Source of the DNA: Bryum argenteum
Taxonomy: Eukaryota > Streptophyta > Bryopsida > Bryales > Bryaceae
Length of the DNA: 64,000 nt
Reading direction: 5' to 3'
Assembly: GCA_037043015.1 (NCBI GenBank)
Contig: CM073328.1
Span: 13,055,495 to 13,119,494 of the forward strand
Below, piece after piece: positions 12,668 through 43,755 of the stretch. How positions within the stretch are numbered: the first letter of the stretch is position 1; each line of letters begins with the position of its first letter. Position numbers and translations under genes: made by a program. Below the pieces are notes generated by a model. It was not told the DNA's origin, ran no database searches, and saw only the letters and a list, made by a program, of their open reading frames with translations.

Positions 12668-13231
12668 TCAATGATGCTGGGAGTTTCCGAGTGCAGTAGT
12701 GACATTTTCGTAGGTATCCACATTATCGAGGTAGTCAATAAGGTCAAGCAATTCGCGGTCACGGGCGTTGTCAATGAAAGTGCCGATGGGAATGGCATTG
12801 TTGGGCTGAAGCAGGTAGGAGTGGGGGTTGTTATCAACAATGAGGGTCTTGCTCAAGGGACGACCCAAGCGGGAGAGATCTTTGACAAAGCCTCCTTGCA
12901 TGGGGCGGCACGAGTTGCGGTAGAGGCGATACTGGATGAGGTTGTCACGGTCCAGGACATCCAGGAGAGGGTCGGCATACTTGCGTAAACTGGCGGTGAA
13001 GACGACGACTTCGAACTTGCGGGAGACGGCTTGCAGGAATCGGTCCACGTAGGGGCGCTTCAGCACGTACACGGTAGTCATGCGTCCCTCAATCTCGACA
13101 TTGATGATGAAGTCGTAGTTCCGCGTCGGCTTGAAGGAGGAATGTACCAGTGTCTCGTCCAAGTCCAGGACCAGCGTTTTCTTGCCATGGTCCTCCCGCC
13201 TCATGGGCGGCAGGTTCATGACTTCGCTCAT
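12668..13231 (-). CDS. FCP1/SCP-type (HAD) protein phosphatase, small
   Basis: Intronless 187-codon frame starting with MSEVMNLPPMRRED. An upstream in-frame extension lacks ATG and hits a stop, so this Met is chosen. The catalytic HAD motif I LVLDLDETLVHS (DxDxT) is present near residue 20. It is followed by YVLKRPYVDRFL, FEVVVFTASLRKYADPLLDVLD (motif II, Thr-Ala-Ser), YRNSC and LIVDNNPHSY with downstream FIDNARDREL (motif III region). This is the complete catalytic core of small CTD phosphatases, which remove phosphate from the RNA polymerase II C-terminal domain or other serine phosphoproteins. The N-terminal part is much shorter than in many plant homologues, so this may be a core-only paralogue, or an unrecognised 5' exon may exist. 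It lies tail-to-tail with the PP2A B55 gene. The lack of introns may indicate a retrocopy. Confidence 0.88.
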   Translation of the reverse strand: MSEVMNLPPMRREDHGKKTLVLDLDETLVHSSFKPTRNYDFIINVEIEGRMTTVYVLKRPYVDRFLQAVSRKFEVVVFTASLRKYADPLLDVLDRDNLIQYRLYRNSCRPMQGGFVKDLSRLGRPLSKTLIVDNNPHSYLLQPNNAIPIGTFIDNARDRELLDLIDYLDNVDTYENVTTALGNSQHH

Positions 13232-13417
13232 ACATATACATCTCTCTTCATATCCTCCGAACTCTGTTTTCACTCCTCCTTGTCATCGTGACTTCCTTCA
13301 GCTGTCTTGTCATCTTTTTGGCCACTTCATTTAGTTTTTCTTTATATCTGCAGGAACAAAATTAGTGAAACTATCAGAGCAAGTCGAATCTGATCATCTG
13401 CTGTTTTGATCTGTTAG

Positions 13418-26223: not shown

Positions 26224-26500
26224 TTGTGTTGTTTACACACCCTGCTGAGGCAGCAGGCAGCGCCAAATTTAGTTTGAGTCAAGGTTCCGGATTTCACGCC
26301 CAGATCGCTTAGTAGGCCGGAACAGCCATCTTCAACCAGCACGCACGGCAGGCAAGACCATTTTTCCACCTCCTACACAATATGGACCGGCAAGGATTGA
26401 ATCTCATTGGATAGCAGGTCAGCAGGATGTGGGAACGGAAACGGAATTGCAGCTGGTGCCTGCCTGCCCAAACTGCTGGCCGGAAGTGTAAACAACACAA
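26224..26500. mobile_element. Foldback/MITE-like element with 15-bp perfect inverted ends
   Basis: TTGTGTTGTTTACAC at 26224-26238 is the exact reverse complement of GTGTAAACAACACAA at 26486-26500, enclosing 247 bases. The interior is clearly GC-richer than the flanks. No convincing target-site duplication was found, so the class is undetermined. Confidence 0.55.
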
Positions 26501-26655
26501 ATGTGCTGCATGTCAACGTTCGAGGGAATTTCTATGCAAGAGGGCACTAACCGAGCGAGTAATTCGGTCGATCAATTCCAAGTTGCAACTCGCACGGCTG
26601 GGTTGGTCAAACGCTGGGCCGTTCCTGCAGTCAAATCCACGACTTTCGGAAGCCT

Positions 26656-26837: not shown

Positions 26838-26845
26838 CTCTAATT
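26838..26845 (+). repeat. Target-site duplication, left copy
   Basis: CTCTAATT directly precedes the left terminal inverted repeat. The identical CTCTAATT directly follows the right terminal repeat at 43748-43755. Eight bases is the length produced by hAT transposases. Confidence 0.9.
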
Positions 26846-26856
26846 CAGGGATGTCA
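26846..26856 (+). repeat. Left terminal inverted repeat of hAT element
   Basis: CAGGGATGTCA, exact inverse of the right end. Followed after four bases by GTCCGGACGTCCGG, a self-complementary subterminal motif. Confidence 0.92.
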
Positions 26857-26962
26857 CAGCGTCCGGACGTCCGGCAGGGGTCCGGGGACCGTCCGTGACT
26901 TAGAAAATCTGGTCGTTTTACCAAGGGTAAATGACCAACGGGGTGCGTTCATTGGTCGAACC

Positions 26963-27125
26963 ACCCCGTCGACCGGTCCCCGACCTCTCCGTCGGCCCGA
27001 CCGACCGGTCGGCTGGCCAGAGCGACCGGCCGTCGGCCCGGGCGACCGGCCGTCAGTCCGGCCGTCGGTCCGGGCGACCGGCCGTCGGCCTCGGCGACCG
27101 GCCCTCGCATCCTGCGACCGCCAAC
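26963..27125 (+). repeat. GC-rich CCGGTCGG-type array 1 (upstream of transposase)
   Basis: Irregular array of CGACCGG, CGTCGG and CCGACCGG words with extreme G+C and CpG content, abruptly bounded. It lies directly upstream of the TATA-like box at 27208. The open frames in it are repeat artefacts. Confidence 0.85.
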
Positions 27126-27207
27126 GGCCAGATGGCCCTTTTGAGCATCCAACGGTTTAGGAGCATTTCAATTTCAAATTGCAACGGTCATATTCGGAGT
27201 TGGATGG

Positions 27208-27244
27208 TATATAAGAGAAGACACATTGAGTCTCATTTCACTTC
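27208..27244 (+). promoter_or_regulatory. Putative core promoter of the transposase gene
   Basis: TATATAAG at 27208-27215, then CTCATTTCACTTC at 27232-27244, where transcription would be expected to start. The same layout precedes the other three genes of the element. Confidence 0.6.
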
Positions 27245-27415
27245 CGAATTTTGAACACTTTCCAAGAGCTATGAGCCACATAATTCATTTTATGTGTACA
27301 TTGCTTGGTAGGTATTGAGTTCGGAAGTGAGGATTTCCGTAAGGAACTCTTGCCAATTTTTTCCCCGTCACGGTCCCACCATTACTTAAGACTTTGACGC
27401 GTCCTATTTATCAAA

Positions 27416-30313
27416 ATGGGCCCTGCTCCACATGAGCCTTGGTTTAGAGACATCGAGAAGGAAGGCAAAGCGTGCGGGTCCTTCCTACGATGCTCACTAT
27501 GTCGTGTAATTGTTTCAAGAAGAAGAGTCGGAATTTGAGTCATTATGGGTACGAGAAGATTCCTGGACATAGGGATTCGAGTTCTGCCCTTTGCCCGAAG
27601 CTGCCTAGGGAAATTAGGCAGTTATTTTTAAGATGTGGTGGGGAGTTCCCTCCATATAACGGAGAATTGGAACTATTTCTCGGTGAATGTTCTCTCACTC
27701 CATCCACGGACGTTCCAGGTGCTTCAAAACATGACATTCCTGAAACCCCTAGGAGTGACTCTTGTGTAGGGTCCTCGCTAGGCACCCCCATGAATTCAAC
27801 AAAAATTTTGGTAGGGTCAACCTCTGCTTCTTCCATGCATATGAGGGAATAAGGGATACTCGCCCGATGCTTGGATCTATGAAGCAAACGAAGCAATCTT
27901 CAATTGAAGCTACTTTTGCAGAAGCGGATAGGCGGGAGTTGGATAAACTCTGGGCGAAATTTTTTTACGAAGCAAATATACCATTCTCAGTAGCCCGCAA
28001 TGATGCGTTCAAAGCTGCCGTGATGAAGACTGCGGGATTTCGAAAATCCTATGCTCCACCATCCTACCATGACATTCGGACAAGGTTGTTAGGAGAAGTA
28101 AAGACGGAGTTACAAAAGAAACTAGATAGTAGACTCTCTGAGAGCCTTCGGAAGTTTGGAGGAACTTTGACTATAGATGGATGGTCATCTGTGACTAGTC
28201 GCCCTTTGGTAAATGCGATGCTCGTGACTCAAGCCGGAGAGCTTTTTCTTGGTGCTGTCGATACTACCGGCCAAGAAAAAAAAATGTGTACATGTCAACT
28301 CTCATGTTGAAGTACATAGAAGAAGTTGGACCGAGAGAACATTGTTCAAGTATGCACGCATAATGCTTCAGAATGCTCAATGCCTCAAGAATAGTCCTTG
28401 AGAAATATCCGCACATTTTCATGCAAGGGTGTGCGACACATGCAATGGACTTGTTGTTGGAGGATTGGGGAAAGGCTGGATGGATGGCGAATACTTTGGT
28501 CATGGCGAAGAAAATGGTCAAGTTTATCAAGAGGCGACAAATGCCCCTAGTCAGTGTTTAAAAACACGAGGCGAAATTCACCTCCCGATGCCCTGGAAAA
28601 CAAGATTTGCTAGTCAATTCATAATGATAGATCGCTTGTTGGAGGTCAAGGAATCATTGGAGCAAGTTGTTGTCGACCCTATGTTCACACACCCTATGCC
28701 TCGAAGAAGACGGTATCTCTAGAGATATAAGCTTATATTCTCACGTAAGGTCAAGAAGGTGGTGTTGAGCGATGAGTTTTGGAAGCAATGCAAAAGACTA
28801 CGGGATATGGTTGCCCCGTGGTGTGTACGCTCGAGAGAATTCGACGGCAAGGCTCCTAGTACGGGCAAGGCATGGCATATTATGCGTGATCTTGAGAGAC
28901 ATGTCCATACTTTGCACGCACCGCCCATCTCATTGGAACCACTTGAGGTGGCCACCGCAAAAGAGTTTTTACCATCGGAAACGGCTCATGACAACGGATT
29001 TACATGGCGCGCCGGCGCACTTTTAAATCCTTATTTACTACACGACCAAGAGTTAGGCGACGATCCCGATCTTACAATCGCTTGCAAGCGTGTTTTACAA
29101 AACTTATGTCCCGCGGAGGATTACGCAGACGTGGTGAGTGAATTTCTTGCGTTTGAGTAAGGGGTCCACCATTCCATGACATGTTGGAGCCTAATACTCA
29201 AAAACTAGCTCCACATGCATGGTGGGAGTTTGAAGGTGCTTGTGCTAAGCTCCTCTCTCCAATTGCAAAGCGAATACTAGCACGAGACCGTGTCCTCGTC
29301 GACTGCGAACGCAATCGGGAGTAGCTACTCTTATGTTCACGACAAGAAACGGAATCGGTTACTACCGGGCGGAGGATGACTTGGTCTACATATATTCCAA
29401 CTCGAAATTGCTCGCGAATGATAAGTTGAGTGATGATGGGCGGTGGTATAGAGAACTTGGATTTAGAGGAAGACCAAGTACATGAGAATGATGAGGAAGG
29501 CATCGAGGACGAATCGTAGTCGATGACAATGATGTTTTTGAATTTGGCGATGAAGATGATGATATGACTTTCTTCCCCGCTTCAAATGATGAAGATGCTC
29601 CAAATGTTCATGATGGTAATGGTGATTTTATCGCTCATGGTCTTTCAGCGGATGATCTAGATGATGAGCAGCCGTTAGCCCGGTTAATGACACAAGGCGG
29701 CATGGACAAATCAAATAACGTCCTACCTGTTATCGCTACTGGTTTACGGTTGGAAAAGGAGGCGATAGATGCGAAGACCATTGCGTGCAACACAATTGCG
29801 GGCACTATGAGCTCTGATCCGGTCGCGGAGAATATTGCATCCGGTAGTAAGGATCAAGTATCTGATCAATGTGCTACTCCCCGCGCTTTATTTCAACCCT
29901 CTACTACAAGGGTTACGACAACCTTGGAGAAATCGTCTAAGGGTTTAGTATCCCTTTCAAGAGCCAAATATGGGAGCATCTCTAGTGACTCTGATGTACC
30001 GTTGGGCAGGTATTTAAAGAATGCCAATGTTCTTCGTACTGCCACGGGATTACAGCACATGCTTGGCTCTTCCAAGTCGCATAAACGGAAATCTGCAACA
30101 ATTCCAATTGTTCCGCCTAAAAAAACGAAGATCCCTGTTAATCTCCCCGAATTTGATACTTGGCATAAGTATGGGAATATACAATGTCCGAGAATAAACC
30201 CAAGATCAAAGAGGAGGTTCCAAGCGATTATGAATATGATCCTACGGGATCCAAAGTGGAGTGAAGTGAAGGGAGATAGCGATTATGAGCAATCCTCCGG
30301 TCCCGATGAGTAG
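27416..30313 (+). pseudogene. hAT transposase with C-terminal extension, multiply frameshifted
   Basis: The start ATG at 27416 opens FRDIEKEGKACGSFLRCSLC, a BED-type zinc finger. It continues in the next frame as HYGYEKIPGHR...PREIRQLF. The main frame 27,850-28,310 has the DUF659-like catalytic region (LDKLWAKFFYEANIPFSVAR, then LTIDGWSS with the DxW aspartate). Later frames give CATHAMDLLLEDWGK (28,430), MPWKTRFASQFIMIDRLL (28,590) and the 28,759-29,160 frame. The dimerisation domain (AWWEFEGACAKLLSPIAKRIL, CERN, SSYSYVHDKKRNRLLP, EDDLVYIYSNSKLL) is split over three frames at 29,215-29,430. At least six frameshifts or stops make it non-functional as read. An acidic, then Lys/Ser-rich extension of about 250 residues (29,564-30,313) follows, longer than I would expect after the hAT domain. 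The GC array and TATA box are upstream. It converges on the RING gene. Confidence 0.88.
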
Positions 30314-30647
30314 TTGAATTTGGCATCTTTATGTAGTATAGGTTTATAGGACTTATACTTATTATAGAAATTGTAGTTATAGTTTCTTGTAGTACTTTAT
30401 TGTTATACTCCAAATGCATTTGGAGATTCTATTGTCTACATGATCGCATTTAATGTTTTGAAAAATATTACATACATTTTTACATACTTGTCGTATTTAT
30501 AGTCTTCACTCTCAATTGTCTCAAGCATACAAAAGAAATGCACATTAAATCAAAAAGATTGTAACCCTTTACTTCAAAAATAAGGCCCCATGGATCAATG
30601 GTGGCATTTGCATCATTTTTAAAACAACAACCAAACAATCTAAAAAA

Positions 30648-30650
<3 letters not shown>

Positions 30651-30730
<80 letters not shown>
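30651..30730. repeat. (TA)40 microsatellite
   Basis: Uninterrupted TA dinucleotide run of about 80 bases. It sits between the converging 3' ends of the transposase and RING genes. Confidence 0.95.
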
Positions 30731-30734
<4 letters not shown>

Positions 30735-30815
30735 TATATGTGGAACTTAAGGTCCAACATCCGTTCTAACTTCAAACTGAAGATCCATCCGATTGGCCAA
30801 TCTGAGCTACACAGC

Positions 30816-33800
30816 CTACACTGCGAGTACGCGGTCTTTGACTTGGACGGGCAATTCGAATTGCCCGCCCTCTTCATACTCTCGATCCACCGCTGCGATT
30901 TCGCCTCTCATACCTGCTTGCCAACTATCCTCCCCATCGTCGCCTGATTGCCTCTTCCGCTTTTTGCTCGGATCCACTTGTTTGTTACGTAAGATTTCCA
31001 TGGCCTTCTCAATCTTTGCAATGACATCCTGTACAACACCTTCAAACTCATCCAATAATAGAAGTTGTGTGTCTTTTGGGTTTAAAAGACATTCTCTCCA
31101 AAATGTAATGGCGTCATCGATACGCGTATCAAACTTCTTCACCGCATCCCAATAAGAGACCTCCACATCTTCAAAAGAATTTTCCGGTATCGAAATCCGA
31201 ATATTGCGGCCTCCTCCAATTTCGCGAGTACCGAGCTCTTCCAATTGGAGTATGATCGTACTTCTTGTACTCTTCACCAAAGCCTGTTGAATCGGTTATT
31301 TCGTGCCACGAACCATCTTCTCCCTTTTCCACTTTCTTTGGAGGAAATCGAAAGAAACGGTTGTGTTCGATGCTCCAATGCCCCCCGAAATTACGACAAA
31401 ACAACTCTCGTTGCTCATCACCTTCAATATTCCTCGCCCTGATCTCTATTTCATAATCTCGTGTCATCCAAAATAACTGATCATGATCCCCACCAAATTG
31501 AATGGCTAGTTGGTGTTTTGATTCGGATGTACTCCAGGTAAGAGCATTTCCCCAATCAGAGTAGTTTAGAAATTTCTTCGGGTATTGATCCAATGGAAGA
31601 TTCCATCGGTTGAACTCGTGCCCTGGTGGCATAAGATCTCGAATGCCCATCATCTCGTAGAATCTCGTGCTAAATGGGGAGCGACATACTGGACATAACG
31701 ATTTAGTCATCGCATATCGGCATATGCAAGTAACATGAAAGTTATGGCCACATTGGCCTAACGTGTATGCGCCCTCCGGACCAAAATTATGTAGGCACAC
31801 CGCACATTTGTCTTTAAGTATTGCGGGAGGAGGGTCGCATGTGTTGATTACAATGCGAGCTGACTCTTGTAGGTGCGATGAGAATCTACTATACGGCGCC
31901 CATCCTTCCTCTATCTCCATAGTCCAATCAACATCATTGTTTCGTCCCATCTTAGAGTAGTTTGTACGCTCCATCATCTCTTCAATATCCCCCCAAAAAG
32001 TGACCTATATGGGGTCATATCGTTTTTTCGATCCGTTCTTAACGAACTTCTCCAATGAAGCATCTACAACTTCACGTGATTCCTTTGATGTAGATGCAAT
32101 CGATTTCAGATCTTCTTTTGCTCTCGAAACCAAGCTCCTCTTATCTTGAAGTCGATGAACCCATCCCAACCATGGTAGTATGCGTAGGTGAAGGTGGATT
32201 GCTTTGCCTCGTAGAATCTACCGTTTTGAAGGTTTTCCGTAATGCCTCCAATTCGATGATCGCCTCATCTCTCTCTTTACTTGTAGCCTCCAACTTCATT
32301 GAGCATGCTTTTGCTTCCTCCTCCAATTTCGCAACTGTAACATCTCTCTCCTTCTTCAGTGCTGCGAACTCCATCGCCCATGCTCGTTGTCGCTCAATCA
32401 TGCATCATCTATCTCCTTTTGTGATATTAACTTCAATTCCCCCCGAATTTCATCATCGTCATCATCGTCTATTTCGATAATGGTTTTTCCCTTATCTTCT
32501 TTACCATCCTCTTCACTAACCTCTTTGAGAGGAGATAAATCCCTGATATACGTCTTTCTCGTCTCTTCTTCACCATCCTCTTTACCACCCCCATCAATTT
32601 GTGAAAGAAAAAGACTATCAGAAGTCCCGATAATGGTCTTCCCCTTATCTTTATTACCATCCTTTTCACCATCCTCTTTACCATCGTCTTTACCACCCGC
32701 ATCACATTCTGGAACAACAACATGACTACATGAAGCCCCCGTGTCATTCTCTGATGGAACATAGGCGAATTGGTCATCCGCCCATGCTTCTACCGCATCC
32801 TTTTGGCGGATTGCTTCTTGGTACTTCGCCTCATACTTGCTAGCAGGACCTTGGCCAAACAACCGCAATTCCCTGTAGAACTCGTCTAGGAGACGTTGCG
32901 TAATTTCTTTGTTGTTTCTCCCTGTTTCACAATGATTAGCTCGATCTTCACTCGGTCCTTCAAGAGAGGTTGAAACCGATCTACGAGTACCTCAAAATTG
33001 TTCGGCTAGTAGTAGAATGTTGGGCATGACACCTGCAAAAGTATGAGCCAGCCCCACAAATCTTCGAGCCATATCCGCAAGTATTTTTGACCCCATCTTC
33101 AAGTTGTACCCTAGATTAGTTATCTGCTCACCCGTAGTCTCAGGCCAATGATTCCCTTCCAAACCTTCCTCTTTATCTACCTCATTGCACCAATCTGCCA
33201 AACTTTTTGCTTTTTTCATCCACTCATCCAATGTGTTATCCGGTACTTCATAAGTCATATACCTCTCGAACATTGGCGCCGCACCCGAATCGAGATCCAT
33301 GTCATCCATGGGAGAAGTTGGTGCTCTGGTTTCCCGTGGTTCACTTGGCCCTGCCTCCTCTGGTGTTGGTACCGGGGTTTCACGAGGTTCTTCAACTACG
33401 TTTGCACCTTCGAGCCTATCAGTTATAGTTGGTTCTACGATTGGGGCATCCGTAGCAACCATATTCCTTCCATCCTCCTGATGTGTCGTGGTTGTTGGAG
33501 GAGATTCCTTCTCCGCCGTATCATGAGTTTTCCTCCTCAAGTACTGCAATAAGGCCTTTGTAGAATTTGATTCTGGATCAAACCTATCAGGGATATCCTT
33601 TTGATTTCTCCCGATTCGAAGAGGATATGCACTACTCGCCGTGAATGTGCTCCAGTTCACCTTGCGCTTCAATATGAGCTCAGCATACACCATGCTCAAG
33701 AGCGTATATGAAAAATAACCCTTGCTCTTGGGACGAGTTCCAAACAATGCCACCCAAACTTCTTGAGCACGATGAAGGAAGTGATCATCCTTGCATGTTT

Positions 33801-34138
33801 GAGGGTTGCAAGTAAAATTATTGGTATTAACTTTGTGACATTCTCGAGGCCAAAGTTTCCCAATGTGATACATCTTCACATATTTCTTGCACGTCGCCAT
33901 TCTCCAGTATTCCTCCGGTTCATTGGCCCAACCGCTCTCAGCTTTGATGGCCTCATTATCCAAGATATTGTAGTGCAACTCATGTCTCGCTCCTTTTGGT
34001 TTCACTCTCTTTGACGATGTCTCATGTAAAACCAACTCAGTCCCCACCAATCTGCGTTTGTGGTTTTACGCCGCAGTGACCTCAAGGTTTGTTCGATGCA
34101 CCGGCCTCCATGTTCGTGTTATTAATATCCGTCGCCAT
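30816..34138 (-). pseudogene. CKKYVKMYHI-domain / coiled-coil / RING-H2 protein, interrupted
   Basis: Starts at an ATG (34138) with MATDINNTNMEAG and shifts into the long frame 34,050-32,992. That frame has a Trp/Cys-rich block WRMATCKKYVKMYHIGKLWPR, then CNPQTCKDDHFLHRAQEVWV and KVNWSTFTASSAYPLRIG. Further frames continue without a gap: FEVLVDRFQPLLKDRVKIEL, an acidic repeat-rich linker with KGKTII twice (32,868-32,398), and a coiled coil (32,401-32,141). The frame then reads KNGSKKRYDPI, a TAG stop, VTFWGDIEEMMER, straight into a RING-H2 finger (CAVCLHNF..., CGHNFHVTC, LCPVC) at 31,977-31,171, and a helical tail with KKRKRQSGDDGE (to 30,816). About three frameshifts and one in-frame stop are present. 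A RING-H2 implies E3 ubiquitin-ligase activity if intact. The CKKYVKMYHI block is shared with the gene at 39.5-40.7 kb and is not a family I recognise. Alternatively the RING part may be a separate gene. Confidence 0.75.
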
Positions 34139-34303
34139 GAAGAGTAGGGAGTATTTAAAATACCCCAAAATATCCCAAGTATGCAAAAATTCGATCTGCA
34201 AAGACCCATAGTATCACGCCGACTTCCCCCCACCACACAAAATGCAAAGACACGAGAAGCTAATGCCCACGGTTGCGGCTCGGTTGAGATGGATGAATAC
34301 AAG

Positions 34304-34342
34304 GAGAAGTGAGGGGAAATGAGGCCCCAAAGGCCTCTTATC
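34304..34342 (-). promoter_or_regulatory. Putative core promoter of the RING gene
   Basis: On the minus strand GATAAGAG (34342-34335) stands at the TATA position, followed by CCTCATTTCCCCTCACTTC. The GC array lies immediately upstream. It is the weakest TATA of the four. Confidence 0.45.
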
Positions 34343-34361
34343 CCCCTCCTCCCAACCCTAA

Positions 34362-34592
34362 AGACCGCCGCCCCGGACGGTCGCTCGGCCAATCACGGCC
34401 GCGACCGATGCTGGCCGGCCGGTCCGGCCGACTGATCGTGGCCGGTCGTTCGGGCCTCCCGGTCGCTGCCGACCGGGGGCTGCCGACCGGTCGCTGCCGA
34501 CCGATGTGGCCGGCCGATCGTGGCCGCTCGATGCCGGCCGACCAATGCCGGTCGACCAACGCGGCCGACCGATGTGGGCGGCCGCTGCGGTT
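34362..34592 (-). repeat. GC-rich CCGGTCGG-type array 2 (upstream of RING gene)
   Basis: Words such as GGCCGACCGATG, CCGGTCGCTGCC and GGCCGGCC alternate irregularly. It ends abruptly at a T-rich tract at about 34,594. Confidence 0.85.
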
Positions 34593-36545
34593 TTTTTTTA
34601 AAATTTTTTTTCAATTTTTTTTAAAAATAAAAATTAGGAAATTATATATATATATATATTTAAAATTCAGAGATCTTACATAGCATAGGATCCTTTTTTA
34701 TTTCGCAAAGTTTTTTGTTATTTGATTCTCAGTGATTATTACACACTGAAATAAGGAATCCTATGTTGATTTCTGAAATGCAATATATTATTTCTCTCGG
34801 ATACATCTTAACCCTTAAAAATCCACAATGTTTCGGGAGCTTGAAATCCCAACACTGACCACTATGTACTATTTGGGGTACGTCCAATATTTTTGGAAAT
34901 TATTGATAATTTCATCCGTAGGATCTTGAAGTAGACTACCATTGATAGTACCGTGATTATTTTTAACCGTTGGATCATCACTAGATGTGAGATCATAACG
35001 TTTAAAGTTGACTGTAAATTTTTTTCCTTCACTTTATGTAAACGCCGAATCGGTGGCCGTGGTCGTTTAGGGGTTAACTCTAAATTTTAAGTTCATAACC
35101 ATTTTCAAAGTGGACTCTTTAAAGTGTAAATCTTCACAAATTAATAGATGTTTCAAACATAAGGCATTCATTTGGTTTTGAATCAATATCTTTCTTCTTT
35201 ATTTTCCTTTTGTAATTTAATTGACCATTGGCTTCATGAATCAAACTTTTAACCACATGACCTACAACAAGAACTCTATTCCAATATTGCATGGTTGAGA
35301 ATGTCAATTGGAGTATCCTAATCTTAATGTAGGACACTTATTTTGGAACTCATCCTAAAGAGTTATTCATACATCCTAAACCATAAACCACAAATCCTAT
35401 CCACGAGTGATTTTATCCACTAGATACTCTAAATGAAGAAGAGATGCCTATTTAAAATTTTATATTTTCAAAACAATCAATCGAAGAAAGAGTTATATGA
35501 CTTATATCGGGAATTACTAGAAATTGTGAAGATTATTTTTGTAATCTTTCAACAAGACCCCTTGTGAAATAGACAAACATTTTGACTTGGGTCACTTTGG
35601 AACTCAAGTAGTAAATTGTTCATGAACATATTTCCAAAAAAGAATTTCAAACAAAGACTAAATTTAACTCGCCTTAATGGACTTCAAACGTAAAAATTAT
35701 AGATGTACGTTGTAAATTTGGAATTTGGATATGCAAATTTTACCACATGCACTTTGCGGTGTAAGGACCACCTAGTCAAAATTTAATAAAAATTATTACT
35801 TTTGACCTCTTCATATAAGTTTGCCGATATAGGAAACCTCCACTTTGGTGTCCATGGATCTTTAGGGGTTAAGAAGGAATATTTTAACAAAAATAAATTA
35901 AGGTGTACAATCAAAAGCATGGTCTTTAACTAATAATAAGAATTGACCCCTTTGCCTTTGCTTTCCTTAAAAACAAGGGCATGAACTCTCAATGCCTTCA
36001 CAAATGAGAAAATTGACCACACTATATTGATTGTTAAATGTTTACTTCGATTCGAGCCAATTGGGCACAACAACTCAAAAAGTGAGTGTATTGGCGTGAA
36101 GATTTGCTCACCTTAACTCCCCTTCAAGAAAGTCCATTACTATGGATATATTTAAAGCCAAGAGTATCTTTGTCATAAAACATTCTCGCATGGGACAAAA
36201 AGATATTCCCGACATTCTCTTGTCAGAAAATTCCCTGTCCATATTTAGACGCCACGGGGAGCATAAAGACTAAATATAGTAGTTTTAAAAATGCAGGTAT
36301 GCAAGGCGAGGAAGTGATCGAAGTTGTGCAAACGGGGAGTTTGGGGAGAGGCAAGAGGAGGAGGGGAAAGGGGGACGCGAAGGACCCACCGACCGTCGCC
36401 GGGGACGTGGTCGGTCCCCACGCCGTCGGCGGTCGTCGGGCCGGTCGCCGGACGCTGGCCGGTCGCCGGTCGCCGGGCCGGTCGCGGGACGCCGGGCCGG
36501 TCGGCCGACGCCGGGCGGGCGCGCACGCCGCCGATGGCGGCCAAA
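34593..36545. repeat. Central segment, copy 1 (ends in GC array 3)
   Basis: Starts with a T-rich tract and CATAGGATCCTTTTTTATTT, whose partner GAAATAAGGAATCCTATG forms a foldback of about 90 bases. It continues through TTTTAAGTTCATAACCATTT (35,086), ACTCTATTCCAAT (about 35,275), a block with GAAAATTGACCACACTA (36,000) and GACGCCACG (36,249), and AATGCAGGTATGCAAGGCGAGGAAG. It closes in a GC array at 36,395-36,545. The same landmarks in the same order form copy 2. No gene starts after this array. Confidence 0.75.
36395..36545 (+). repeat. GC-rich CCGGTCGG-type array 3 (no gene attached)
   Basis: GGTCGCCGGACGCTGGCCGG-like words. Directly followed by a T-run instead of a TATA box, so it looks like a promoter array that lost its gene by the central duplication. 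Confidence 0.8.
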
Positions 36546-37258
36546 TCGAAATGGGGCCAAAGTACAGTTTTTTTTTTTTTTTTTTTAAAAATTCCTTAAA
36601 TACATAACTAAAAAAGATAAAATTGCATAGGATCCTTTTTTATTTCTCAAAGATTTCATTACTCGATTTTCATAATTACTACACAATGAAAAAGGAATCC
36701 TATGTTGATTTCCGAAATGCTAAGTATTCTTTTTCACGGATACATTTGAACTTTAAATTTTAAGTTCATAACCATTTCAGTGAGCTCCATAAAAGTATAG
36801 ATCTTCACGAATTCAAAAATGTTTCGTACAAACACTACTTGATCTCTCATACGTTATGATCTATGAGGTCATATGAATTAAACTCTAAGCCACATGACCT
36901 ACAATAGTAACTCTATTCCAATTTTGGTTTAAAATAGGCTATGAGATTGAAGACTCTGGAATCATAATTCGTATGTTGATGTTTAATATAGTACCTATAT
37001 ATTCTTTGCAATAAATTTGTGATTTATTCCATGTCAATAACATCTTCAATCAAAAATGATAAATACAAAATAGATTATTTTGCACACATTAACTATGCGA
37101 TGTAGAGAAGTGCAACTTGTATCCATGTAAAATATAATTGAGAACTACACCATACATACAATAATCCATTATTTTACATCCACACACAATTGTGTTTGCA
37201 AAGCTTTGCAACACAAAAACTAGGATTAAAATGAAATGTACCCCAAATCCTCAAGACC

Positions 37259-37309
37259 AAACCCTAAAACCCTAAACCCTAAACCCTATACCTAAACCCT
37301 ATACCCTAG
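37259..37309 (+). repeat. Interstitial telomere-type repeat
   Basis: ACCCTAAA and ACCCTATA units in a run (CCCTAAA is the complement of the plant telomere TTTAGGG). Only about six degenerate copies, so a short interstitial tract and not a chromosome end. Confidence 0.75.
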
Positions 37310-39002
37310 AGGCCTACATAGTAATTCATACATCTTTAACCAAGAACTTAAAGTTTATCCTCAAGAGAATGTATCCATTACATACAAGAAATGAAGAAGT
37401 GATGGCTCTTCAAAATATTCTATTCCTAAATCAATCAATCATAGTATACGAATAATCAATTTGATATAACATCTAATCCTAGTACTAATGTACTATACTT
37501 ATACAATATCAAATATGCTGCTTAAAAATTTAGGAGTTGATGCCATTATTGCCATATGTTAAACACTTAGAGGGTGGGATATTTTTTAAAATTTATTGGT
37601 CTCCTATTTATTTCTCTTATTTTATGATTGCAAAAATAGTAACAATGAAAACTTATTTCAATTACCTTGGTAAGAGGGAAATAAGTAACTATTCAAATCC
37701 ATACAATAAGAATAATGCTACAATTAATCATATGTACTAGATTATATATATTCTCCTAGGTTAGTTGAAGGTTGTCAAACAAAAAATAGCGAATAATAGA
37801 ATTAATTGTTTATGCACCATATTTTTTATAATAAGTATTACTAATTAGAATACACAACGACGGAATAATTTCCAAATACCCATCAATTAATATAGACCAT
37901 ACATTGTGGAAATGTTAAGGCCCAAATAGAAAGTCTAAATATTGACAAACTCAGTAAGACCAAAGTTATGAAAAGTAAATGCTCACACATGATCACCTAC
38001 ATTTCATATATACTTGGATCTCTCCAATGTGAGACATCAATATATTCTCACCAAGGACTAGGTAAATTTTTTGGAATGTAATTAGAGGGGATTTAGGGCC
38101 ACCTCAGGGTACACAGTACGGGGCAAGTCATGAATGGGGGCCAAGAAATGACAAAATCTCCTAGTGAGAATGGATAAATTTTTCTATTTCCTATCCGTGA
38201 AAAATAGTAACCCACTCCTTTCTCACACCAAGTATATAGATTCCCTCAATTTTCCTTAAGTGTACGAGAATAGGTGGTTTCACTACAAAGGGGCTATGTC
38301 CAATATTTTTGGATATACTTTATAATTTCAACCATAGGATCTTGAGTAAACTACAATATGTAGTACTGTGAAATCTTCAACCGTTGGATCATCACTACAT
38401 GCGAGATCATTACATTTGAAATTGAATATGAAACATTTTTTGGCCGTGACGATAAAAGACGAAATGGTGGCCATGATTGTGAAGGTGTTAGGGAAGAATA
38501 ATTCCAGAAAACAAAAAATAAAAAATAAATGTGTACCAAAAAAAAACATGGACTTTAGTTAATAATAAGAATTGGCCCCATGGCCTTGGCTACCCTTCTA
38601 GACATGGGCTTCAACTCCAAAGGACTTCATGACTCGGAAAATTGGCCACACTAAATTGGTTGTTCAATTAAAGCTAATTGGACAACATAACTCAAAAAGT
38701 GCGTGAATTGGCTTGGAGATTTGTTGGCCTTCCCTCCTCTTGCAAAGAGTCCCTTATTATAGGTTTATTTAAAGCCGATAGTATCTTTGTCATAAAACAT
38801 TCCCGTTTATGACTAAAAGACATTCCCGACATTCCCTTGTCAGAACATTCCCTGTCCTTATTTAGACGCCACGTGGACCAAAGAGGCTAAATATGGAACT
38901 TTTGAAAATGCAGGCATGCAAGGCGAGGAAGTGTTCGAAGTTGTGCAAACAAGGAGTTTTTGGGTGAGGGAAGAGGAGGAGGGGGAAGGGGAGACGCGGA
39001 AG

Positions 39003-39335
39003 GATCGACCGACCGGTCGCCCGGGGGTCGGGGTCGGTCGCCGGCCCGGTCTTCGGTCGCCGGTCTCCGGCCCGGTCGCCGGTCGCCGGCCCGGTCGGGT
39101 GGCCGGATGCCGGTCGCCAGACCGGTCGCCGGTCGGCCGGATCGGTCGGCCGGGATCGGCGGCCCCGATCGACCAATCGGCCGCGCCATCGGACGGCCCC
39201 GATCGACCGATCGGAAGTGCGACCCCAATCGGTTGTACCGGCCGGTCGCCGGCCGCCGGATCGCCGATTTGACGGCTGCCGACCGGGATCGGACGGCCAA
39301 GGCCAGCTGGCCAATGGCGTCCGATCCTTGGTCGG
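39003..39335 (+). repeat. GC-rich CCGGTCGG-type array 4 (upstream of second CKKYVKMYHI gene)
   Basis: Contains GGTCGCCGGTCTCCGGCCCG-type words, then GATCGACCGATCGG words towards its 3' side. It leads straight into the TATA-like box at 39337. Confidence 0.85.
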
Positions 39336-39336
39336 C

Positions 39337-39372
39337 ATAAATAGAAGGAGGGGCTCATTGTCCTCACTCACA
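39337..39372 (+). promoter_or_regulatory. Putative core promoter of the second CKKYVKMYHI gene
   Basis: ATAAATAG at 39337-39344, then GGGCTCATTGTCCTCACTCAC. Same order as in the other genes of the element: array, TATA-like box, CTCACT motif. Confidence 0.55.
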
Positions 39373-39484
39373 GTGAACAGTGCCGCGTTGCGGCTTTTTT
39401 TAAAGTCGCATCGATCGATCGCGTTACTCGTAGTCCGCGTGGGTCACCCACGCCCTCACCGCGCATACTTGTCGTTCTTTGGAA

Positions 39485-40703
39485 ATGGCGCCCAAGTTTT
39501 CACGTTCGAGGGCGAGGCCAAGTCTCCACGACCAAAGGGCGACCCTCCAAAATGGATTGGGAAGCATGGAGTGACCCAAATCGTGTTTGCGAGCCGGGTT
39601 GGCGTGAGGAGAGGGCGGACATTTGGAATTGCACCATGTGCAAGAAGTACGTGAAGATGTACCACATCATGAAGTTATGGCCGCGGCACGACGAGAAAAT
39701 ATGGTCCTCGTCGTGAAGGCCCAGGTGAAGAGTTGCAAGAGCGACCATTTTGCGCCTGAGATATCACGAAGTCACAATTGCGGTTGGAATCAAGAACACA
39801 AGGCCGAATTGATGTTGTATTCTACCATGGCCATGGTGTGGTGGGTGAAATAGTCCCGCACAAGGACATTGACTGGACCACCGTGATAGGTTTGAACGTG
39901 CATTTATTGGATCGCAAAGAAACCGATTCATTCCCACAAATTGGATGGGACCAAGCGATTGTTATACTACGTATTGAACGTTCACCGATATGGATGCCCA
40001 ACTTCAACAACATGGAACTCCAAGGGCATATGGGGGCACTCAAAGAAGACTCAAACCATGACGATCGTCAAGCACCGGTATCCTTTGGCACAGAAGTGAG
40101 GGGTATTACCATGGAAACCACCAATTCGGTACTCCGGTGAGTTATATGCCACTCCATCAGCAAAACACGTACAGAGCCGAACGCGAGTACGGTAGAGGTG
40201 GATCTAGTTCAAACTACCCATCTCCAATGTATACAGGAGGTACACATGGTTTAGGAGGTGAGCAGGGTAGCGGATCCAATGCTCAATGCAACTCAAGCCC
40301 AACTCATCCTATAAACCCATACAATCGTGGGAACCAATACGGTACAACATTCGGAAGTCCCGAGTACCGTAGGCCATCACACCCGAAGGAAACATACGAG
40401 TATGGAGGTCAATATGATAGAAGATCAGACATTGTTGGCTACACAAATTATGGATATGGTCAGAATGCATACGGAAGTAACGACATGCCTTCAAAGACCT
40501 TATCTATCTCCTGGAGGACGAAGAGGCGAGGTACCAACAAGATCTCGCAACAAGCCACACTTCTAAGTCGGCGGGAATACATTGAATGTACTCGAGGCCG
40601 AAAGAAACTTTAGGCAAACGTACTTGTTTGGAGAATCTTCTCGAGGACCACCTTCTTACTACCACGGGCAAGTCGTAAAGACGATGATGAAGAATCGGAT
40701 TAA
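39485..40703 (+). pseudogene. CKKYVKMYHI-domain protein 2, frameshifted
   Basis: An ATG at 39485 or 39552 (MDWEAWSDPNRVCEPGW) leads into WNCTMCKKYVKMYHIMKLWPR, clearly paralogous to the RING-linked protein on the other strand. After a shift comes KSCKSDHFAPEISRS, matching TCKDDHFLHRAQE. Then HKDIDWTTVIGLNVHLLDRK matches the KVNWSTFTASSAYPLRIGR region. The distal part (40,137 on) is Gly/Tyr/Asn-rich (YGRGGSSSNYPSP..., YGYGQNAYGSND) and unlike the paralogue. A helical LIYLLEDEEARYQQDL and an acidic DDDEESD terminus follow. At least three frameshifts. No RING finger is seen. Two CxxC-like pairs suggest metal binding, but the family is unknown to me. It converges on the kinase-like gene. Confidence 0.65.
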
Positions 40704-41415
40704 GAATGACAAATCATTATACATAGTGTCATTGTAGTGAAGGTTATGTAGTTTTTGGCGTGGATAATGTCTACACCATTCTCGCCTTGCTAGGGGCCAA
40801 TTTTGAGGATACAAAATCCATATTTTGTTTATGAATGGATTATCCAATATCGAGACTATATCGTTCTATATTAATATACTATGTAATTTGTTATTTCAAG
40901 GATTTTATGGCAATTTCTTTGTATTTTATACTATAAGTTCACTTGGTGGTAATAATTTCTTCCGTTTGGCTTTAAGCCTTTTTTTGACATCTCACACTCT
41001 CACCTAACATATAATATGTTCATCAATTCATTCAAAAAAAAAAAAGCATATGTAAAAGAAAAGTCATATTATGCTTGAGCTGACTTCGGACAAACCATTA
41101 ATATCGCAACTACGCAAGGTTGATGTAATGAAGAAGTTCCACAATTCATTATACATTCTCAAATATTGTTCATGAAGATTTGGAGATATTTCTATTGAAG
41201 GTAAGAAGTAATAAATTAAAATAACAAACAATGGAGAAGAAGTCATTGGTGCAAGGTATATATAAACAAGAATGTACTTGAAGCCGATACATATAGAAGG
41301 CATGTAATACACTTTACTACAAAAAATTTGCCTACATCTACATCAGAACTTCAATGAAGAATCTAAAAATCTAATAAAGCCGGAAGAACTAAAAGAAATG
41401 CGCATAACTAATTTG
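40704..41415. other. spacer between converging cargo genes
   Basis: AT-rich, with a short A-run at 41,034. It presumably holds the 3' ends of both genes. No coding signal. Confidence 0.45.
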
Positions 41416-42898
41416 CTAATCATACTTGGTGCGATAATGATCATTTGGCACCGGCCAATGGAATGATTCCATGAAGCGGTTGACAACGTGGGTCAACGTA
41501 TACTTTGCATCGACCACCATCTCCAAGTATTGGTCAAAAGCATTTGCCAAGTCTTGATTGCACCACCGGTCAGGCCCCGTTGTACTTTGGCAATTCTCGT
41601 AGGCCTTCGACATGCTCTTCTTGAGGATGCGTTGTGCTATTCGTGCCGTAGCAAACTCCTCCGAAGCGCAATCAAGAACGGGAATAATGTGAATGTCATC
41701 ACTCCGTTTGTACAAGTACGCCACCCGAGGATCTACCCAATATCGTGCTTGTAGAGTATCAATTCGCTCTTGGGGTTTTGTGAACGTATACAAGGACCTC
41801 ATTTTATCATCCATGCTCGTCTTTAGCCCCCCAATCACATACTCCAATATACACCCGTGATTCATCTTGAGGAAAGTGAAGAAGTATGTTCTCTGGAGAC
41901 ACATCGTTGTGGAGGTAGTTCAACCGGTGGACTTCACACATGATATGCACTAAAGCCTAAGCAAGCTCTGTTCGTTTTTTGCGGAACCGGACCAACTGCC
42001 AAGCTCGAATAAGCTCATCATCAGAATGAGGTGAGAGTCCAATCTCTCCATGAACAAAGATCTCCATATCTTGCATCAAGAGCCAACATCGATCGAATCG
42101 TGCCGCCATTCCACCAAAGACGTATAGCCTTGGAATTTATTTGCATGAATGGCTATAAAACGAATAACACCGGGATGTTGTATCCTCACAAAGAAGCGCC
42201 TCATTCGATGCTCCATCTTGGCCAAGTCTCGTCGTGTCACAAAGATGGATGGGAGTCTTTGCGAAGAAATTCCCAAAACTCTTCAATACCCGCAACCCCT
42301 CTTATGTGAACTTTGGAAATTGCGCCGTATCCTCCCCTAGAGTCCTCTTCTCAAGCTCGATGATACGGGCCGTCATAGGAATTACCACCAAATTATTCGT
42401 ACGAACCAGCTCCATTAACCTTCCTTGTTCCGTGCGCCACCATCCTATGGAACCAACCCGGTTTGCATTATTGGAATACGGCCTCATCGCTTCTTGAAAA
42501 GCCTCCGCCCTCAATACCACATCCCTGAACTCCTCATCACCCGCTCGAGTGGTTCTCTCATACCTCTTCAATATGGCGACAGCATCAATTAATCTATCCT
42601 CCATCCAGTCCGTAAAACCACGCTTATCAGTCTCCATTCTCCACACCGGATCTTGGAGCGCTTCCATCATGAGGTCCATCATGTCGTCCTTGAATTTGGC
42701 CACAGCTTCCTCTTTGTATCTCACGTATTTGCTAAACAAACGTGGAAGACTGTTAGCCTCATAAAATCGCACGATTACATTCTCCCGAAGAAAGTTCTTG
42801 CACTTATTGGATGGGTGCTCCCACTTCTCCAAATGTCTAACAACCCTTGGTCTCCGGCCTCGATTCCCCCCACTACCCCCCGCCCCATGTTTGGGCAT
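41416..42898 (-). pseudogene. Transposon-borne protein-kinase-like gene, interrupted
   Basis: Starts at ATG 42898 with MPKHGAGGSGGNRGRRPRVV. About 200 helical residues of unknown type follow (LEKWEHPSNKCKNFLREN..., WVR/WRTEQGRL...). The kinase part appears after a frameshift near 42,300: FVTRRDLAKMEHRMRRFF, HPGVIRFIAIHANKFQGYTSLVEW, then (other frame) ALVHIMCEVHRLNYLHND, VSPENILLHFPQDESR and VYIGVCDWG. The last frame (41,880-41,416) gives RYWVDPRVAYLYKRSDD and FATARIAQRILKK. HNDVSPEN keeps the catalytic Asp and Asn; DWG replaces DFG; the beta3 Lys may be Arg. Breaks include a TAG near 41,958 and a shift in a run of six G at about 41,845. Order and motifs match the relic at 3.1-4.0 kb. GC array 5 and a TATA box lie upstream. 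Confidence 0.75.
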
Positions 42899-43025
42899 CT
42901 TTGTGAAAAAAAAAGCAAAATCTCCCCCCTTACAAATGAAAAGACTTCTTTCCTCCGCAGGATAATGAGCCAGTGGATGAAAATTAAAAATTTCCAACCT
43001 CTGACTACTCGCACTCGATAACGAA

Positions 43026-43067
43026 GGAAAGAAGTGAGGAGAGTGGAGGCCGGTCGGGCCTTATATA
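43026..43067 (-). promoter_or_regulatory. Putative core promoter of the kinase-like gene
   Basis: On the minus strand TATATAAG (43067-43060), then CTCCACTCTCCTCACTTC. A leader of about 130 bases precedes the ATG at 42898. Confidence 0.6.
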
Positions 43068-43069
43068 GG

Positions 43070-43560
43070 CCGCGGTCGCATGGCCGACCGGCGACCTAAA
43101 TCGGACGGCCGATGGCCGACCGGCCCGACCGATCTGACGGCCGGCGCCGACCCGGCGCGACCGATCGGCCAGCGGCCGACCGACCGTCGGACGGCCCAGC
43201 GCCGACCAGGGCGCGACCGCCTGGCCAGCGGCCGACCGACCGTCGGACGGCCGGCGCGCCGACCCGCCCCGACCGATGGCCCGCCGACCCGACCCGATCA
43301 CGCCGGCCAACCCGACCGATCGCGGCCGACCCGACCGATCGCGGCGCCGACCGACGACCGACGGACCGGCCCTCGCCGACCGGCGGTCGCGGCGATCGAC
43401 CGGCCGACGGAGAGCGCGACCGATCGGACGGCCGACGCCGACCGGGCCCATCCGACGGCCGACCAACGCGACGATCGGACGGCGGCGGCGATCAGCGACG
43501 ATCCGGCGGCGTCGACCGGTCGGTCGGCAAACCAATCGGACGGTCGAGGCGCCCGATTCA
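43070..43560 (-). repeat. GC-rich CCGGTCGG-type array 5 (upstream of kinase-like gene)
   Basis: Longest of the five arrays, made of CCGACCGATCGG, GGCCGACC and CGGACGGCC words. It is open in several frames on both strands only because stop codons are rare in such sequence. No protein is claimed. Confidence 0.85.
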
Positions 43561-43736
43561 ATCCAACGGTAATCACCTACCCTCACAACACTATTTGAAC
43601 GGCTACGATACGATTTTCAATACGATCTGACGGTTAAAAAATTTACTACATGCATAGTAATTCCGATTTACCCCCGGACGGACGTCCGGACGGACGGACG
43701 TCCATCCGTCCAAAAAAACCCAAAAGACGTCCGGAT

Positions 43737-43747
43737 TGACATCCCTG
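43737..43747 (-). repeat. Right terminal inverted repeat of hAT element
   Basis: TGACATCCCTG, inverse of the left end. Preceded by CGGACGGACGTCCGGACGG-like subterminal motifs. Confidence 0.92.
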
Positions 43748-43755
43748 CTCTAATT
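43748..43755 (+). repeat. Target-site duplication, right copy
   Basis: CTCTAATT, identical to 26838-26845. Confidence 0.9.

Follow-up and report, generated by a model that had tools for sequence, protein, structure and literature searches.

A 17-kb element in Bryum argenteum as the probable copy of a recently active, four-gene hAT transposon family

A 64,000-nucleotide stretch of the Bryum argenteum genome (assembly GCA_037043015.1, contig CM073328.1; hereafter the window, C8:13055495-13119494) contains a DNA transposon of the hAT type. The window copy spans positions 26846-43747, and the 16,902 bp between its target-site duplications (TSDs) hold four genes in two convergent pairs: a hAT transposase gene and a RING-finger gene, followed by an open reading frame without a Pfam family (ORF3) and a kinase-like gene. 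Five arrays of CGACCG/CGGTCG motifs also lie within the element. An earlier, sequence-only reading of this DNA had reported perfect 11-bp inverted ends, an 8-bp duplication, the length of 16,902 bp and the two convergent gene pairs; direct reading and a script re-check found the ends and length correct to the base, and the gene arrangement was likewise correct. The features of the window copy are listed below, where TIR denotes a terminal inverted repeat and 'CKKY' is a name coined here for the N-terminal domain of the RING protein and ORF3.

26838-26845, unstranded: left copy of the 8-bp TSD, CTCTAATT (read directly, script re-check)
26846-26856, plus strand: 5′ TIR of 11 bp, CAGGGATGTCA (read directly, script re-check)
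26930-27140, plus strand: GC-rich array, subterminal and upstream of the transposase gene, with TATATA at 27208 (motif count)
27416-30313, plus strand: hAT transposase gene with DUF659 and a hAT C-terminal dimerisation region, interrupted here (frames and Pfam)
30772-34138, minus strand: RING gene with CKKY domain, variable middle, RING-H2 finger and conserved C-terminus, interrupted here (stop read by eye)
32878-33418, minus strand: variable module of the RING gene, approximate (residues about 241-420, indels ignored; alignment)
34340-34600, unstranded: array upstream of the RING gene (motif count)
36370-36560, unstranded: fifth array, beside an internal duplication, with no long conserved frame after it (motif count)
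38990-39340, unstranded: array upstream of ORF3, with CATAAATA at 39336 (motif count)
39485-40703, plus strand: ORF3, no Pfam family, a CKKY domain and then a G/Y/Q-rich tail, interrupted here (frames and two-sequence BLASTP)
41416-42898, minus strand: kinase-like gene, interrupted here and open in several copies, catalytic residues kept (frames and Pfam/PDB)
43060-43560, unstranded: GC-rich array, 3′ subterminal and upstream of the kinase-like gene, with TATATA at 43067 on the minus strand (motif count)
43737-43747, minus strand: 3′ TIR, the reverse complement of CAGGGATGTCA (read directly, script re-check)
43748-43755, unstranded: right copy of the 8-bp TSD, CTCTAATT (read directly, script re-check)

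All four gene frames are interrupted in the window copy, and the long frames are open in other copies. Each copy has its own indels and stops, so that the open frames vary among copies.

The genome searched was the 258.8-Mb assembly of 25 contigs. Exact matches to the 11-bp TIR occurred at 616 places (290 + 326), compared to 102 (51 + 51) for a reversed control. Four of the first eight of these loci were without any similarity to the element, and longer ends were therefore used for counting. At loci L002 and L007, the exact match lies inside what appears by eye to be a retroelement polymerase frame and not at a family end, which argues that the 11-mer alone should not be counted. With at most two mismatches, the 22-bp 5′ end was found at 216 genome places and the 23-bp 3′ end at 188, compared to 0 for each control. 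Searches with 600 bp of each end gave 52 and 41 matches (best 40 of 353 and 40 of 288 candidates), which became 40 and 40 when fragment rows were merged or dropped.

Ten further copies, selected because both 600-bp ends matched about 17 kb apart, were fetched whole. Exact TIRs at both sides and a perfect 8-bp TSD were present in all 11 whole copies (the window copy and these ten), and all of the TSDs were different. The whole copies are 16,836-17,561 bp long and show pairwise identities of 94.1-97.7% over the element, with the same interior in the same order throughout. This paired-end search and TSD check, together with the counts of 216 and 188 ends, bore out two proposals of the sequence-only reading: that the element belongs to a large multi-copy family, and that the kinase-like and RING genes travel with the transposase, since the four gene types recur in fixed order and orientation in the copies examined.

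Ends were also paired across the genome, using the first 100 listed places of each long end (all exact) and a limit of 60 kb. Among the places listed, there were 45 properly oriented exact pairs, compared to 3 in a wrong-strand control. The pairs comprise 26 at 16.0-17.9 kb and 19 at 18.5-51.7 kb, the longer ones of a size that would fit nested insertions, and none is shorter than 16.0 kb. Thus, the other copies did not prove to be short, transposase-only elements, the outcome that the earlier reading had named as fatal to its proposal. Twelve of the 45 pairs were without a gene match in the listed hits; three of these are copies D, G and J from the fetched set, and their full sequences align to the window copy across the gene regions. 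Incomplete match lists therefore explain at least part of the 12 gene-less pairs.

Protein searches scored the best 86 of 1,127 kinase, 65 of 1,205 transposase, 55 of 1,869 RING and 95 of 1,493 ORF3 candidates (92, 70, 58 and 100 matches, respectively, before fragment rows were merged or dropped). When gene and end matches were merged, the six features sought formed 210 clusters among the matches listed. Partner genes lay at the expected place and orientation, such as ORF3 by 40 of the 86 kinase matches and RING by 23 of the 65 transposase matches, with values of 0-1 in a wrong-orientation control. All four genes occurred together in eight clusters (five of them without a listed end, two having the 5′ end and one the 3′ end). 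Over the first 22 Mb of contig C1, the exact 11-bp TIR stood on the expected side of 16 of 29 kinase and 17 of 28 transposase matches, and on the wrong side of none of either. C1 (44.1 of the 258.8 Mb) holds 131 of the 210 clusters, a concentration that incomplete match lists may exaggerate; exact 11-mers stand about 1.9 times as densely on its first 22 Mb as on the whole genome, judging by 100 listed places there and 616 in total.

In some other copies, the transposase frame is open over 973 aa. In copy I, Pfam matched both DUF659 (E 3e-35) and Dimer_Tnp_hAT (E 5e-11) above cut-off, and the three transposase fragments scanned from the window copy matched DUF659 only. The 8-bp TSD and short TIR in 11 of 11 whole copies and the C-terminal dimerisation region in copy I are the marks of a hAT element, which supports the type first assigned from sequence. 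Candidate D, D and E motifs of a DDE/RNase-H-like transposase are visible by eye. The TIR of the maize hAT element Ac starts with the same eight bases as CAGGGATGTCA.

Purifying selection acts on all four genes. Among the 11 close copies, the ratio of non-synonymous to synonymous change (dN/dS) was 0.38-0.48 for parts of the transposase, 0.59 for the kinase, 0.53 for ORF3 and 0.75-0.80 for RING. A further set of comparisons used copies near the bottom of the match lists by identity (bootstrap ranges in brackets). Here, dN/dS was 0.37 (0.29-0.45) for the transposase in six copies with synonymous differences of 0.06-0.25, 0.40 (0.32-0.50) for the kinase in 10 copies (0.20-0.31), and 0.57 (0.45-0.74) for ORF3 in six copies (0.09-0.21). 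For RING, three of 10 fetched loci gave 0.69 (0.55-0.87) overall and 0.29 (0.20-0.46) for the C-terminus. Decay after insertion pulls these ratios towards 1, and the true constraint is therefore probably stronger. One gene set, in one order and selected jointly with the transposase, looks like a set of accessory genes of the element and not like variable cargo; on this point the sequence-only reading, which had compared the extra genes to the cargo of giant fungal elements, was not supported.

The RING gene is a single 1,113-aa frame from ATG in copy L042. Its zf-RING_2 match is above the Pfam cut-off and the eight zinc ligands are kept in 19-21 of 21 copies, and the protein is a probable E3 ubiquitin ligase judging from these sequence features. 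In 60-residue windows over 21 sequences, dN/dS was 0.34-0.61 for residues 1-240, then 1.46, 1.10 and 0.82 for residues 241-420, 0.61-1.21 for residues 421-720, 0.22-0.65 for residues 721-1080 and 1.04 for the last 33 residues. Copies E and H differ in the module of residues 241-420 at 28% of synonymous and 30% of non-synonymous sites, compared to 3% and 1% in the flanks, which implies a swapped module rather than point mutation alone. Among nine representatives, the module had a dN/dS of 1.15 (bootstrap 0.87-1.51), clearly above that of residues 721-1080 (0.32, 0.22-0.47) and not significantly greater than 1, so that diversifying selection on the module is not supported. Residues 421-720 are relaxed as well, at 1.10 (0.80-1.68).

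ORF3 is about 400 aa long. Its CKKY domain matches that of the RING protein with 34% identity over 142 aligned positions (two-sequence BLASTP, E 2e-24), and the two proteins are therefore paralogues in part. A sequence in the ORF3 tail (near window 40500-40600) resembles a ubiquitin-interacting motif, but Pfam did not bear this out, giving nothing at E 10. The kinase-like protein is 496 aa from ATG in copy H, inside a 530-aa open frame. A PDB search matched it to phosphorylase kinase (E 4.4e-5), and an NCBIfam scan gave sub-threshold matches only. The P-loop, Lys, Glu, catalytic-loop Asp/Asn and DFG-type Asp, motifs that were assigned by eye, are kept in 18-21 of 21 copies, and this conservation suggests that the protein is probably catalytically active.

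The five arrays, whose limits were set after inspection, make up 1.5 kb in all. They hold 65 CGACCG/CGGTCG sites (37 and 28, plus strand), compared to 2 (0 and 2) in the 47 kb of the window that flanks the element. Each of the four genes has an array upstream, and arrays lie near both element ends; TATA-like boxes follow three arrays, and none was found before the RING gene. Array length varies among copies, from 178 to 380 bp for the first array and from 315 to 669 bp for the ORF3 array. The observed/expected ratio of CpG is 1.37 in arrays versus 0.70 outside the element.

Arrays also occur in shorter elements. Pairing by the 11-mer alone in the first 22 Mb of C1 gave 22 pairs under 60 kb, four of which are under 16 kb (3.1, 3.2, 5.0 and 12.0 kb); the 12.0-kb pair has one end in common with a 16.0-kb exact pair. 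Elements L049 (C1:3466250-3469430) and L050 (C1:8091440-8094800) are 3.1-3.2 kb long and 94% alike over 2.3 kb; both end in the 11-bp TIR of the family, and each has an 8-bp TSD of its own. They are without similarity to the four genes and share with the large element no more than its end pieces, a 74-bp internal piece and the CGACCG/CGGTCG arrays, suggesting that they are probable non-autonomous relatives. Both carry arrays at both ends, as is expected of cis-acting sites. The 3.2- and 5.0-kb elements have the exact 22-bp 5′ end and are absent from the 3′-end list, consistent with a variant 3′ end; the count of 216 places for the 5′ end thus includes some short relatives.

Further observations concern the insertion site and the layout of the window copy. 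The 19-mer formed by TSD and TIR has a single genome place, the window copy itself. No paralogous empty site was seen among the best 40 of 77 candidates scored with a 600-bp left-flank query, and apart from the window no match extended past query base 265 of 600. A dispersed repeat at 26246-26510, immediately left of the insertion, has matches of 77-97% identity on many contigs (same 40 of 77). Inside the element, window 36035-36334 and 38652-38951 form a direct duplication with 81% identity and 2.6 kb between copies. It duplicates the region upstream of ORF3, and its first copy has its own array and no long conserved frame after it. On contig C10, hand reading of match coordinates makes the copy at 15985000-15998300 about 2.8 kb shorter in the stretch from ORF3 to RING, and this copy may lack the duplication. 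A long TA microsatellite lies between the transposase and RING genes (30650-30730), where alignment coverage of the copies falls to 0.72. Outside the element, a frame of 204 aa at window 12668-13282 on the minus strand contains a complete NIF phosphatase domain (Pfam E 5e-58).

Taken together, these results lead us to read the window element as one copy of a recently active, autonomous four-gene hAT family of about 17 kb in which the extra genes are accessory, with a probability of roughly 0.78. That this is a four-gene hAT family that mobilised itself seems nearly certain, and it is very probable that the extra genes were retained because they are useful to the element. The family is called recently active because its copies are 94-98% identical and their TSDs are intact. 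By this account, the transposase would bind the subterminal CGACCG/CGGTCG arrays and the TIRs and move the element by cut and paste, as in Ac. The anatomy of Ac (TIR, TSD and subterminal repeats) is present here, which makes binding of the terminal arrays by the transposase the simplest reading. Common arrays upstream of all four genes would link their expression. The RING protein, its part-paralogue ORF3 and the kinase would be accessory proteins that aid persistence of the element; most probably they would counter host silencing, or else regulate the transposase and its host partners. By analogy with VANC of the VANDAL elements, counter-silencing is the specific role that we favour at slightly under even odds.

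Several results weigh against this interpretation. Among the matches listed, 107 of the 210 clusters hold a single feature of the six, which may be explained by lists that give only the best of many candidates. The copy I transposase gave no Pfam match to a BED finger at E 0.5, and a C-x2-C pair is visible by eye. The Pkinase match of the kinase-like protein (E 1.2e-4, 22.0 bits) falls under the Pfam cut-off of 31.7 bits. Ratios of dN/dS were obtained by a counting method on mostly decaying copies, and comparison of the ten low-identity kinase copies with one another gave 0.66. Coevolution of arrays and the RING module was tried as a candidate and found no support in partial Mantel tests that took out relatedness (p 0.11-0.89; 11 copies, five arrays). 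Decay of CpG per site was higher in arrays than elsewhere (0.036 versus 0.020), and relative to other C-to-T changes it was lower (ratio 2.2 versus 3.2-3.6). Protection of the arrays from methylation was not borne out by these two measures, which are confounded by poor alignment of the arrays.

Under a rival reading the extra genes are passengers, and pieces of host genes would have been captured once and amplified by hitch-hiking, without use to the element. Plant Helitrons and Pack-MULEs are known to hold host sequences captured in this way (review PMC13317346, in whose main text the word hAT was not found), and frames are broken in many copies here. However, the dN/dS ranges of the kinase, ORF3 and RING all stay below 1, as does that of the transposase, the catalytic and zinc residues are kept, and no short element occurs among the 45 exact-end pairs listed, all of which make passengers highly improbable. 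To a composite origin, in which an unrelated kinase/RING element is nested in a transposase-only hAT, we give almost no credence: the internal duplication (36.0-36.3 kb and 38.7-39.0 kb) does indicate a rearranged middle, but all 11 whole copies repeat the full 17 kb as a single unit with a single TSD, and a short copy with both exact ends is found in none of the 45 pairs among the places listed. As in fungal cargo elements, the extra genes might help or manipulate the plant, for example in immune signalling, which would fit the signalling-type character of the kinase and RING proteins. We consider it improbable, since the 11 whole copies share interior and order without variable cargo and the many decaying copies fit selfish spread.

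The arrays may be merely Ac-like subterminal sites for the transposase, with the extra genes regulating transposase activity or dosage and not chromatin silencing. The multiple hexamers that the Ac transposase binds in the outermost 200 bp at either end of that element (PMC3260210) and the arrays at both ends of the short relatives speak for this alternative, whereas the arrays upstream of RING and ORF3 are internal and distant from the ends, so that subterminal binding by the transposase alone leaves them unexplained. We regard it as a tentative possibility that deserves weight. A multi-protein counter-defence, in which a RING ubiquitin ligase with a fast-changing, recombining recognition module, a CKKY paralogue and an active kinase would act together and the arrays, as marks on each promoter and on the two ends, would address the element's own copies, is on balance unlikely. 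If true, it would amount to anti-silencing via ubiquitin and phosphorylation, and not via DNA-methylation enzymes.

Constraint on the kinase and on the RING C-terminus is of about the same strength as on the transposase, which suggests that a hAT element can become a multi-gene parasite with a regulatory layer. The family could serve as a system for studying transposon counter-silencing beyond VANDAL elements, with the variable RING domain as candidate recognition module and the arrays as candidate address tags.

Among known systems, Starships have a tyrosine recombinase and variable cargo. Our element resembles these and other giant fungal elements in being large and in having non-transposase genes, and differs in its hAT transposase and single gene set; the frames scanned gave no Pfam match to a tyrosine-recombinase captain, and it is thus not a Starship. 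The fungal hAT7 elements are hATs with an extra gene; they have a 7-bp TSD and a TET/JBP dioxygenase gene that perhaps acts on DNA methylation, a function called open in PMC12730594. According to the same paper, fungal IS3EU elements have a 6-bp TSD and carry alpha-kinase and TET/JBP genes; like our family they are DNA transposons with a kinase gene beside the transposase, but their transposase is another one and the best matches here are ordinary protein kinases. Accessory genes in hATs and kinases in DNA transposons therefore each have precedents, separately. No plant hAT that combines a kinase with a RING gene came up in the literature searched, which was largely without subscription papers.

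Maize Ac/Ds resembles our family in the anatomy of its ends. As described in PMC3260210, Ac ends in 11-bp TIRs, is flanked by 8-bp TSDs and has subterminal hexamers to which its transposase binds; our family shares with Ac/Ds the 11-bp TIR, the 8-bp TSD, short repeats near both ends, a hAT transposase, and shorter relatives with little in common beyond the ends. By contrast, Ac is 4.6 kb long with one transcript, compared to about 17 kb and four genes here, and short copies with both exact ends number 0 of the 45 pairs listed, the short relatives having a variant 3′ end. The other parallel is VANDAL, the Mutator-like elements of Arabidopsis, whose accessory protein VANC binds to arrays of short motifs outside the coding regions of its own family and causes DNA methylation to be lost (PMC5735166). 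Both families have extra conserved gene(s), arrays of short motifs in non-coding parts and fast turnover of these repeats. They differ in transposase superfamily and ends, and the accessory proteins of our family are of RING, CKKY-domain and kinase type; no Mutator-type Pfam match was found in the frames scanned, and the element is therefore not a VANDAL. The parallel to VANDAL and VANC, close in anatomy, may be only a resemblance in its possible mode of working.

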